A stretch of 64,000 nucleotides of DNA from Terriglobus roseus (GTDB lineage: Bacteria; Acidobacteriota; Terriglobia; Terriglobales; Acidobacteriaceae): positions 3,348,001 through 3,412,000 of the forward strand of contig NZ_FNSD01000001.1 in NCBI RefSeq assembly GCF_900105625.1. The letters run 5' to 3'. Numbering within the stretch: position 1 is the first letter of the stretch; each line of letters opens with the position of its first letter. This document shows, in pieces, positions 61,104-63,616 of this stretch. The notes under the pieces are model-generated. The model ran no database searches and had not been told where the DNA came from. It saw nothing but the letters and a program-made list of their open reading frames with translations. A program made the translations under genes and the position numbers.

Positions 61104-61208
61104 TTTGCGGCGGGTGGACACTGCACCTTGCGTCCGTAGGATGATTGTTCTTGCAAGCGAAGGCCCAAAGCAACGTACCAGGGTGGATCGGTGAGGAGTT
61201 TCTCTGTC

Positions 61209-61292
61209 GCGGGCCTACAGCCCGCAGTTCCTCTTCCTGCATTTGACCCAGGGCTTTGCCCTGGGCTGGGAAGTCGCGCACCTTCAGTGCGC
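61209..61292. repeat. Cluster of three tandem GC-rich hairpins
   Basis: Three perfect hairpins sit in 84 bp: GCGGGC/GCCCGC (61209-61225), CCCAGGGC/GCCCTGGG (61247-61265) and GCGCAC/GTGCGC (61276-61292). The layout looks like a dispersed REP-like element; only one copy is in this window. It marks the border between the TetR gene and the lower-GC retron-like locus. Bases 61293-61599 hold one more inverted repeat (GAGCCTCG 61542-61549 with CGAGGCTC 61589-61596) just past the reverse transcriptase stop, and no supported gene. Confidence 0.75.
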
Positions 61293-61599
61293 CCTGTATG
61301 CAGTGCACAAACGGTCGTACGACTTCAAGGTTTTTCGAAGGGAAACTCTAGGTGAAGCGGCAGCAGATTCATTGCAACCGCGGTTAGTCGCGGGTCGGTT
61401 ACGTCGGCAGCATGCGATTGGTCGATTTCCGGCGCTGGAGGACGGGTTTGGGCGGGGCTGGTTGAAGGGTGTCCCCTACATAGACCGCGCGGAACCGTAG
61501 TGGGTTGCCAATGAGGATTGATCCCAGTACGGGCATCATGGGAGCCTCGTCTCAGACGCGAGACGTGAACCGCGCTCGATCTCGGGCTCGAGGCTCACG

Positions 61600-62589
61600 C
61601 TATCCCTTTGCAGATCGGGAAGTGAGCCCTGCTTGAGAGGGAATAGAAACATTTATAGATCTCAATTGCTTTTCAAGCGGTATCGCATCGGACGGGCAGA
61701 GAGACCTTACAAATCCGACTTTACCTAGTAAGCTTTGGACATCTTTGCTGCGACCACGCGTGGTGACTTTTCCGCGCTTGAGATTGTGGATTCCCGCACG
61801 AATCTCTCGAACCTTAAGTTTGCACGCCCTTAGCTCCTCCCGACCAAGACGGGCGCCGGTGACCAACTTAGAGCTTTTCCCCGTGAGGATCACACGCTTT
61901 TTTCTCGAGTCCCTTAGGCCGTTACATGCAAGCGTCTGCCGCACCAGTTCCATAACGTCACGCGACCTCTCACCTGAAAAGGTAAGATCGTCCACCCACA
62001 CGGTCGCCACGATGTCTTTCGCAACGCAATCCTGAATGATTGGTCCGTAAATTGAGGCAAGGAACAGATTCGCCAACGTTGGGCTAGTTGGAGCACCTTG
62101 GGGGAGGTGGAAATCGCATGTAGTTAGTTTTGTGAGTATTTTCGAAACCGGCGCCGAGCAGCATAGGATCTCGTGCCAGACCTTGTAAACATGTTCGTTG
62201 GTAAGATTTGGATAGTAGCTTTTGATATCCATCTTGACGATGGTGGTAGCGCCCAAGTGAGCGGCCGCATGCTCACGAACGCTGCGTTTCGGGACCGCCC
62301 CAAAGAGAAAATTAGGAAGGTTGAGTGGGAGCAGAAGTCTAGAGAGGATCCTCCTTTGAATCTTCTTTAACTCCACACCCGGGTTATCGATTTTCCTGAG
62401 CTTTTTAGTTTGCGGCTTCTTGGCATGGGGCTTGAGCGGTTTTGCCTGCTCAAACGGGGAGTAGTTTGCCTCCCATTCAGCTAAGCGCAACAATGCCTCT
62501 CGGCTTGCGCCGAGCAGATGTTCGAGTTCGCGGAGGCTGCGTAGTGGCAGCTGATCCAGAGGGAGACGTTTGTTGCGCTGAAGAGTCAT
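61600..62589 (-). CDS. Retron-type reverse transcriptase
   Basis: I take the ATG at 62589 (MTLQRNKRLPLDQ), 329 residues; a TTG at 62604 is possible. The RT order is intact: VELKKIQRRILSRLLLP, REHAAAHLGATTIVKMDIKSYYPNL (motif A with catalytic Asp about 121), FHLPQGAPTSPTLANLFLA (motif B), TVWVDDLTFSGERS (motif C, Asp200-Asp201), and KLVTGARLG, the VTG signature of retron RTs. The NAxxH-like HAAAH is also retron-like. Unusual points are Trp-Val in place of Tyr-Ala before the DD pair and KSYYPN in motif A. No maturase or endonuclease domain follows, arguing against a group II intron. The 5' end overlaps the XRE gene by 113 bp. Confidence 0.88.
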   Translation of the reverse strand: MTLQRNKRLPLDQLPLRSLRELEHLLGASREALLRLAEWEANYSPFEQAKPLKPHAKKPQTKKLRKIDNPGVELKKIQRRILSRLLLPLNLPNFLFGAVPKRSVREHAAAHLGATTIVKMDIKSYYPNLTNEHVYKVWHEILCCSAPVSKILTKLTTCDFHLPQGAPTSPTLANLFLASIYGPIIQDCVAKDIVATVWVDDLTFSGERSRDVMELVRQTLACNGLRDSRKKRVILTGKSSKLVTGARLGREELRACKLKVREIRAGIHNLKRGKVTTRGRSKDVQSLLGKVGFVRSLCPSDAIPLEKQLRSINVSIPSQAGLTSRSAKG

Positions 62590-62881
62590 GAGAGTCTCTA
62601 TCAACCTGCATTAAGAGTTCTGTAAGTGCCAGAGACAAACTCTCAATCTGTCCTGGTTTCGCTCGCTGCGCATCAGCCTCGCTTATGCCGAGCAAGCTAA
62701 GAAGATGAAAAGGCATCCTTAGAGCTTGGGCCAGTTTTTCGATGGTATCGAGCGTGGGCTGGCGCTTTCCGGATTCGATGAGAGAGAGATAGCTCCGATC
62801 GATGTTAGCGCGGTCCGCTAGTTCGCCTTGAGAAAGATCAGCAAGCGAGCGTGCTACACGGATAGCTTTTGAATAATTCAT
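62477..62881 (-). CDS. XRE-family HTH protein upstream of the reverse transcriptase
   Basis: The start at 62881 (MNYSKAIRVARSLAD) has AGGTGG five bases upstream and gives 134 residues. The HTH is LSQGELADRANIDRSYLSLIESGKRQPTLDTIEKLAQAL. A helical stretch with QIESLSLALTELLMQVD and a basic, low-complexity C-terminal tail (PPRTRTSARRKPRG) follow. The tail is encoded in the region that also encodes the start of the RT. HTH accessory proteins occur in some retron classes. Here it may repress the locus or serve as the DNA-binding part of an effector; the sequence does not decide. Confidence 0.82.
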   Translation of the reverse strand: MNYSKAIRVARSLADLSQGELADRANIDRSYLSLIESGKRQPTLDTIEKLAQALRMPFHLLSLLGISEADAQRAKPGQIESLSLALTELLMQVDRDSHDSSAQQTSPSGSAATTQPPRTRTSARRKPRGIVALS

Positions 62882-62924
62882 GTAAACCACCTGAGATGAA
62901 AGGAAAAACGGCTCCCCTTGGGAC

Positions 62925-63152
62925 TTACGCGATGACTTGAGCATGTGCGACTTCATAGGCTGCTTCTGCGATGCGAGCTACAACCAAGCGGACTTTTTCG
63001 TGGTCTAGCCTTGTCGCCTTCTGCAGCTTCTTTAGATCGCGGATGCCCTCGATCAATGCTTCGCGCTGCCCCGACGTCAGTTCGTTGTTTGCGTCACCGA
63101 GCATCTGCTTAATTAGTTCGATGCACGATTCGATTAGCTTTGACGTTTTCAT
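62925..63152 (-). CDS. Small helical protein of the retron-like locus, unknown family
   Basis: The ATG at 63152 has AGAGGAAA upstream; the frame stays open further upstream through the structured RNA region, which I treat as non-coding. The 75-residue product is almost entirely helical and charged (SKLIESCIELIKQMLGD, TSGQREALIEGIRDLKKLQKAT, DHEKVRLVVARIAEAAYEVAHAQ). I recognise no family. It lies 43 bp upstream of the XRE gene on the same strand and directly downstream of the putative msr-msd RNA, so it is a candidate effector, antitoxin or structural partner. Confidence 0.6.
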   Translation of the reverse strand: MKTSKLIESCIELIKQMLGDANNELTSGQREALIEGIRDLKKLQKATRLDHEKVRLVVARIAEAAYEVAHAQVIA

Positions 63153-63187
63153 AGTTGTTTCCTCTTCTCCCGTTTGAGCGGGGGCGC

Positions 63188-63370
63188 GTTCGCCGGAACC
63201 AGAGAAGGAACGAATGACGTCGGGGAGCCGTTCTCTGAGAGAGCCTAGCGAACACTGGGGCGCGCTGGCTGCCAGGGGTTGAGGCTTCGCCTCCCCGTTC
63301 TGGACTTTAGGGGCAGGAATTACCTGCCTGGGAATCAAATGATTCCCAATTACGCCTATTTCTAGGCACC
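63188..63370 (-). ncRNA. Putative retron msr-msd RNA
   Basis: Read on the minus strand, the 5' part holds four short hairpins in series. They are GCCTA-GAAA-TAGGC (63354-63367), GGGAATC-loop-GATTCCC (63330-63347), GGCAGG-loop-CCTGCC (63312-63328) and GAGGC-GAA-GCCTC (63281-63293). A longer nested hairpin follows: outer GTTCGC/GCGAAC at 63248-63253 and 63188-63193, inner CAGAGAA/TTCTCTG at 63231-63237 and 63200-63206. Short msr stems, then a long msd hairpin, then the ORFs, is the expected retron order. A TTGACA box lies at 63397-63402 and another at 63468-63473. I could not find a clear a1/a2 pairing, so the boundaries are approximate. Confidence 0.5.
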
Positions 63371-63616
63371 TGATTCCGATAAATCACACCAAGGATTGTC
63401 AAAGAGCTTTTCGAAAACATCAGCAGTAGCGCCGATCCATTGCTAGGCTATGACCTTGCTCCGCCCGTGTCAACACAAAAAATGACTCAAAGAAACATTA
63501 TTTACACAGCAACCGATGCCATCGTCCATTACTAGCGTTCGTGCCGAATTAAAACACTTCATCTGGAGGGCAAGTACGACAACGGCAACCGGCTACCGGC
63601 TAATCTCGGACAGCTC

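Follow-up and report, generated by a model that had tools for sequence, protein, structure and literature searches.

The locus studied here raises the question of whether its reverse transcriptase (RT) gene and the small genes beside it form a new kind of retron, a type of bacterial RT system linked to defense against phages, or whether something else in it is new. The window, which is the whole stretch of 64,000 nucleotides of Terriglobus roseus DNA that was analyzed, carries on its minus strand a promoter, the hairpin H0, the box TCTTTGACAA, a structured RNA reaching to 63153, a 75-aa ORF, an XRE gene and the RT gene, in this order (Table 1). The locus is known by its genes, and a leader of the boxA type appears to be its unusual and apparently unreported part.

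Table 1. Features of the retron locus, in window positions
Feature	Position	Strand	Details
Sigma-70-type promoter (predicted)	63445..63473	-	-35 TTGACA 63473-63468, 17-nt spacer, -10 TAGCCT 63450-63445
5' hairpin H0, boxB-like position	63419..63438	-	Stem ATCGGC/GCTGAT; covariation on 13 loci
boxA-like element TCTTTGACAA (GCTCTTTGACAATC in context)	63396..63405	-	Identical 10-mer in own rrn leaders
a1, 5' arm of closing stem	63385..63395	-	TCCTT 63395-63391 and GGTGTG 63390-63385; predicted pairing
msr-like hairpins	63312..63367	-	SL1 63367-63354, SL2 63348-63329, SL3 63328-63312; predicted fold
Candidate msd region	63205..63311	-	Inferred from position between hairpins and a2 arm
a2	63160..63188	-	CGCGCC 63188-63183, hairpin 63182-63169, GAGGA 63164-63160; predicted pairing with a1
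Small protein, 75 aa, SP_VI-like	62925..63152	-	PADLOC SP_VI 0.0028; like-placed ORFs in relatives
XRE-family DNA-binding protein, 134 aa	62477..62881	-	PADLOC HTH_VI 8e-21, Pfam HTH_3 4e-14
Retron RT, 329 aa	61600..62589	-	PADLOC RT_VI 1.8e-64, next RT_III-A 3e-45

Genes, retron type and relatives

The RT matched the PADLOC model RT_VI with 215.7 bits (1.8e-64), ahead of RT_III-A with 152.8 bits (3e-45). Among the NCBIfam models, it matched group II intron RTs with 25 bits, Drt3a with 22.2 and Drt2 with 17.6, and no DGR or Abi models were among these matches. Other RT classes were discarded on these HMM scores (at most 25 bits for group II and Drt). With these scores, a structured leader and a conserved layout, the reading of the locus as a retron in the initial annotation was borne out, and the search against retron RT models did not place the RT with the group II RTs. 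The type VI class was introduced by Mestre et al. 2020, as cited in PMC8541194, and a paper on a Shewanella prophage describes it as an RT with a DNA-binding protein and a small auxiliary protein. The gene set is therefore already known, and XRE gene, small protein and RT, which the initial annotation had supposed to be an uncommon or undescribed combination, are those of described type VI, with its HTH_VI and SP_VI models. By its genes, the locus is an ordinary chromosomal type VI retron. It shares with this type the RT clade, the XRE gene overlapping the RT, the upstream small ORF, the leader RNA and the gene order, but its small protein is divergent and its RT has the W[VI]DD motif. PADLOC typing covered the RTs of the window, L015 (also RT_VI), L026, L086, L089, L096, L105, L204, L205, L206, L208 and L210-L213. 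Other acidobacterial loci were typed VI because their RT resembles that of the window and an XRE gene is present, the Bacteroidota loci by the RT_VI search, and L097-L104 by gene layout.

The QG, DD and VTG motifs noted earlier are present as PQGAPTS, WVDD and VTG. The catalytic motif is thus WVDD and not YADD (window 61970-62000). W[VI]DD replaces YADD in 14 of the 15 readable acidobacterial loci of the branch, and L080 has FVDD. In the Bacteroidota loci with a boxA, F, Y or W precedes VDD or IDD (10/10 readable), and the other Bacteroidota RTs that were read have Y in 10/10, nearly all as YADD. We take NAxxH and VTG to be retron RT motifs; the NAxxH position reads HAAAH in the window RT, and NA..H or NV..H in several relatives. 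The XRE gene lies directly before the RT and overlaps its frame by 113 nt, in agreement with the overlap described before. The likely start of the RT is ATG 62589, and the ORF itself opens at TTG 62604. The reading frames of the locus are intact, and its GC content is indeed lower than that of the flanks (51-56% against about 60%).

The 75-residue ORF, found on the same strand as first reported and helical as judged by eye, matches SP_VI weakly (PADLOC, 0.0028), and no SP_VI match was obtained for three other acidobacterial small proteins scanned. The proposed search for homologues beside RTs gave small ORFs at the corresponding position of 14 more acidobacterial loci, with weak likeness in L079 and L080; the closest relative is that of L057 (39% identity). 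There is no long hydrophobic, membrane-like stretch in the 75 residues. We tentatively regard the small protein as the likelier effector. The XRE protein may control the retron promoter. L015, L016, L017, L020 and L024 have a palindrome TGAC-N5-GTCA immediately before the -35, a candidate XRE operator; the pattern also occurs in L022 and L079 at other positions, and the window has only GTCA.

In the family, 8 of 200 genomes matched the window RT at 1e-10, its own genome included. A six-RT profile at 1e-20 matched 28/397 genomes of the order and 16/396 of the phylum, many with other RT types, and gave 16 loci in genome contigs. The acidobacterial branch was counted as 16 loci (window, L015-L025, L057, L079, L080 and L081). 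L008, the fragments L058, L073 and L078, and the duplicates L002-L007 and L051-L056 were excluded from the counts, L026 equals L136, and the distant L028-L030 lie outside the study set. The order leader, small protein, XRE and RT is found in the window and in 14 other acidobacterial loci, and L081 has XRE and RT. In viral contigs, no relative was detected with the window RT; the profile search gave 20 distant loci, of which L031-L034 were inspected.

The insertion site of the retron is variable. In G1065, the nearest relative examined within the genus, one flank is conserved (91% protein identity) and only a fragment of the TetR gene is left on the other side; between them, a REP-associated tyrosine transposase and repeats stand in place of the retron. 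Variation in one genus relative bears only circumstantially on an anti-phage role. An 89-nt repeat of the window (61205-61293) has three further copies in L197, near the REP-associated tyrosine transposase at the corresponding site of G1065. Four loci, L015, L016, L017 and L021, adjoin a B12-dependent ribonucleotide reductase gene (confirmed in L015, the others by eye), a possible insertion hot spot.

The leader RNA and its boxA-like element

The run of hairpins first seen upstream of the genes does belong to a structured leader, but the RNA element begins further upstream than had been supposed, with the predicted promoter and H0. For the leader (63405-63153), the folding energy is -100.5 kcal/mol; 200 dinucleotide shuffles averaged -80.2 (z -4.0), and 0/200 were as good. 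When each leader body was compared with 25 mononucleotide shuffles of its own, it was the more stable in 15/15 loci, with z from -2.3 to -5.6. No Rfam family matched at the leader. The aligned leaders have the promoter, the hairpin, the box and a hairpin close to the Shine-Dalgarno sequence in common, and their middle part is unalignable. Of 15 acidobacterial leaders, 14 have TTGAC[AT] ahead of the box and L080 has none; the scan set the 17-nt offset by script, and the -10 was assessed by eye. Hairpin runs like SL1-SL3 were read by eye in the folds of 12 relatives, the third hairpin being unclear in L022.

Covariation was counted for H0, the MAFFT alignment of the msr hairpins being too poor for counting. 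Among 13 loci, 5 of the 9 pairs of H0 changed on both sides, a number reached by 23 of 500 shuffles. Paired cells amounted to 90.6%, with a covariation score of 0.510 against 0.258 for shuffled alignments (0/500), and slid controls scored at most 0.168. Taken alone, the H0 of the window was no more stable than shuffles (z -0.4).

The box lies 39 nt after the predicted -10 and 243 nt before the first ORF. The Terriglobus roseus genome has two 16S genes, each with one box, GATCTTTGACAAC, in its leader 157 nt before 16S, and the 10/10 core bases of the retron box are identical in both. When 16 retron-bearing genomes were queried, 16S was obtained from 5. TCTTTGACAA is present in the rrn leaders of all four acidobacterial genomes (G153, G291, G767 and G768), and the Bacteroidota genome G765 has AAGTTCATTAAACATATTG in its rrn leader. 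The box of the retron leader thus resembles a boxA antitermination site. The key element of rRNA operons that recruits NusB-S10 and blocks Rho is described to be boxA (PMC10250234). Genome-wide, there are 16 copies of TCTTTGACAA and 11 of the reversed control, so it is not clearly enriched and its place matters rather than its number. A chance match was ruled out, since the box recurs at a constant position among diverged loci and its letters follow the host dialect. No earlier record of boxA in retrons was found in the open literature searched.

In the branch, the box was detected in 16/16 loci with a loose pattern (one divergent) and in 15/16 with a stricter one. In the set of 46 acidobacterial RT loci, 16/19 with an XRE gene have the stricter pattern upstream, against 5/27 without; L025, L059 and L087 are the XRE loci that miss it. 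Boxes resembling boxA, TGCTCTTTGAAAATTGG and AGTTCTTTGAAAATATT, were also seen several hundred nt upstream of a type XIII RT (L086:323) and a III-A-like RT (L089:234). A nusB gene, which encodes the boxA-binding protein, lies beside a lumazine synthase gene 2.3 kb from the retron promoter, outside the window (L014:13774-14211, NCBIfam 3.6e-37); this proximity is probably a coincidence.

Directly after the box, the predicted closing stem of the window fold consists of TCCTT/GAGGA, GGTGTG/CGCGCC and a longer inner helix. Pair probabilities of a1 are 0.82 to above 0.99 when H0 is left out, and inclusion of H0 lowers TCCTT/GAGGA, the pairing with the Shine-Dalgarno sequence, to 0.44-0.54. The GAGGA of a2 doubles as the Shine-Dalgarno of the small ORF. 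This was rejected as a novelty, since Ec86 has the same layout: its a2 presumably carries AAGGGTGCGCA, 6 nt before the RT ATG, with a later start annotated in the record. In narrow windows, the region after the box is more complementary to the region at the start of its own small ORF than to permuted partners (p 0.0011, 15 loci), and the own pair of the window is no better than chance (z 0.04; 13/14 foreign partners as good). Wider windows gave p 5e-5 for 16 acidobacterial and 1e-4 for 13 Bacteroidota loci; kinship among the loci means that the p-values do not count as independent tests. In the wide test, only 3/16 and 4/13 loci had their own a1/a2 energy as the best of the row. Since the best wide duplex extends into coding sequence in some loci, such as L015 and L020, this test backs long-range complementarity more than the exact stem.

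The box in other phyla and retron types

RT_VI matched at 1e-45 in 26 of 296 Bacteroidota genomes. The Bacteroidota set has 29 loci, 28 from this search and L027. In 11/11 loci with an XRE gene and in 2/18 without, GTTCTTTGA is present at a distance of 850-1054 nt upstream from the RT match; with a looser pattern, the count without XRE rises to 6/18. A TAnnTTTG-like motif precedes the box in several loci (by eye). In the rrn leaders of ten Bacteroidota genomes checked, exact GTTCTTTGA was present in two (G851 and G874), G834 has GTTCTCTGACA, three have a GTTCAT-type sequence, and the rest have none or incomplete leader sequence. Named plasmids of Bacteroides uniformis and Aureispira anguillae carry the box. 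None was found within the 390 nt read of a Riemerella plasmid, in the 390 nt scanned of L200 or in L203, and L202 has too little upstream sequence for the scan.

In gammaproteobacteria, the boxA consensus is given as GYTCTTTAANA (PMC5725501). This exact form is found upstream of 8 of 21 proteobacterial loci, namely the type V loci L204-L210 and the type VI locus L211 of Alteromonas. Over the 183,502 strand-bases of the proteobacterial loci read, this form was counted 13 times. A hairpin lies just upstream of the box in 8/8 gamma box loci (z -1.4 to -4.3). All seven gammaproteobacterial type V loci read have the box; they count as five distinct ones, since L207 and L209 share a leader stretch with L206 and L208, and they were drawn from 44 matching plasmid records, sought after L204 had shown the box. 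These type V (Se72-type) retrons of small enterobacterial plasmids likewise have a hairpin and a boxA, the latter in its gamma form, followed by leader and RT. They have a cold-shock-like effector after the RT (annotation of L206-L208; CSD_V), whereas the window has XRE and the small protein before it.

Type VI members with a boxA leader were read in Acidobacteriota, Bacteroidota and Alteromonas, in contrast to the other proteobacterial ones. The box was found in 1/12 proteobacterial type VI loci (1/7 among gammaproteobacteria) and is absent from L096-L104, L212 and L213, six of them gamma. Thus, type VI as such does not need the box. No box was detected in the type IV locus L105, nor in Ec86, except for TCTTTGATAG inside the upstream effector gene. 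On these absences and those of the 11 type VI loci, boxA was rejected as a universal retron feature. On a Pseudosulfitobacter plasmid, a retron resembling type VI is followed by a gene with a TIR domain (L101:3408-4373).

Possible role of the box and competing readings

Our preferred reading, which we consider fairly probable, is a type VI retron in which the Nus/rRNA antitermination machinery helps to transcribe the untranslated RNA. A single promoter would give the hairpin and boxA, then the retron ncRNA (a1/a2, three hairpins and msd), and then the small protein, XRE and RT. From its sequence and the known function of boxA, the box may, as it does in rRNA operons, bring NusB-S10 and further Nus factors to the polymerase. 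The Nus complex would keep the roughly 250-nt untranslated RNA from being cut off by Rho, so that transcription reaches the genes. With boxA tethered to the polymerase, the adjoining a1 could be held ready for a2, which follows about 230 nt later, in the manner of a leader-trailer helix. The RT, as in other retrons, would prime on the leader RNA to give msDNA. A closed a1/a2 stem might mask the Shine-Dalgarno of the small protein, and the promoter may be under the control of XRE. Together with the RT-msDNA complex, XRE may also restrain the small protein. By analogy with other retrons, phage infection would disturb this complex and release the effector.

Known systems offer parallels. In the rrn leader (boxB-boxA-boxC), the same TCTTTGACAA stands ahead of an untranslated RNA with a long-range closing helix; in the window, by contrast, the leader drives a retron and no boxC was assigned, and the rrn hairpin was judged by eye. 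With boxA directly before a1, and a1/a2 closing the RNA, the window would have the same geometry as the rRNA leader and trailer. A role of boxA as a tether that may aid formation of the rRNA leader-trailer helix is proposed in PMC10250234. CRISPR arrays are reported to undergo boxA-dependent antitermination by the rrn complex (Stringer et al. 2020, via PMC12691694). There too, the long noncoding RNA of a defense system is protected from Rho by this complex, but RNA and proteins are unrelated and the retron case is proposed from sequence.

The box may also be read in other ways. It could be a part of the retron RNA that is bound by the RT or XRE and resembles boxA by convergence, and its position directly before a1 in the window and its association with XRE-bearing loci would fit. 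We consider this unlikely, because its letters follow the boxA of the host lineage (TCTTTGACAA in Acidobacteriota, GYTCTTTAANA in gammaproteobacteria), it serves types V and VI alike, and 11/12 proteobacterial type VI loci do without it. The typical type VI genes, and a box only slightly more frequent across the genome than the reversed control (16 against 11), would also agree with a plain type VI retron in which the box is inherited and functionless. Yet the box stays in place while RTs have diverged to about 40% identity and the mid-leader has become unalignable, and it recurs in three phyla in local form, which makes this reading quite improbable. It is very improbable that the locus is a retron relic or a domesticated regulator, in which the RT is impaired by WVDD and HAAAH, leaving XRE and the small protein to act alone. 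Both substitutions, of NAxxH and of the YxDD tyrosine by tryptophan, are there in the window RT, but W[VI]DD is shared by nearly the whole branch (14/15 readable loci), the frames are intact and the leader is structured.

For transcription with Nus help, a wider version can be proposed, to which we give even chances. A built-in boxA, often with a preceding hairpin, would be shared by type V and type VI retrons of at least three phyla, each in the dialect of the host. Nus factors would carry the polymerase and chaperone the a1-a2 pairing, so that retron output is coupled to Nus/S10 and interference with Nus is possibly sensed. Phages are known to seize Nus factors and S10 (lambda N, HK022 Nun). 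If true, this would explain how a long structured RNA is transcribed in some retrons without ribosome protection, and would connect two fields, retrons and rRNA antitermination. It would also mark the true 5' end of the ncRNAs, which current models may truncate. Retrons would join the boxA users described in PMC5725501, PMC12691694 and PMC10250234 (rRNA, lambdoid phages, suhB and CRISPR arrays). The idea of boxA-led retrons is testable in E. coli K-12, since type V copies occur on 4-kb plasmids in Escherichia. Mutants of nusB are viable in this strain. Among 5426 E. coli genomes, 29 match the leader and RT of the plasmid type V retron, and in 23 of these the match covers 80% of the query or more.
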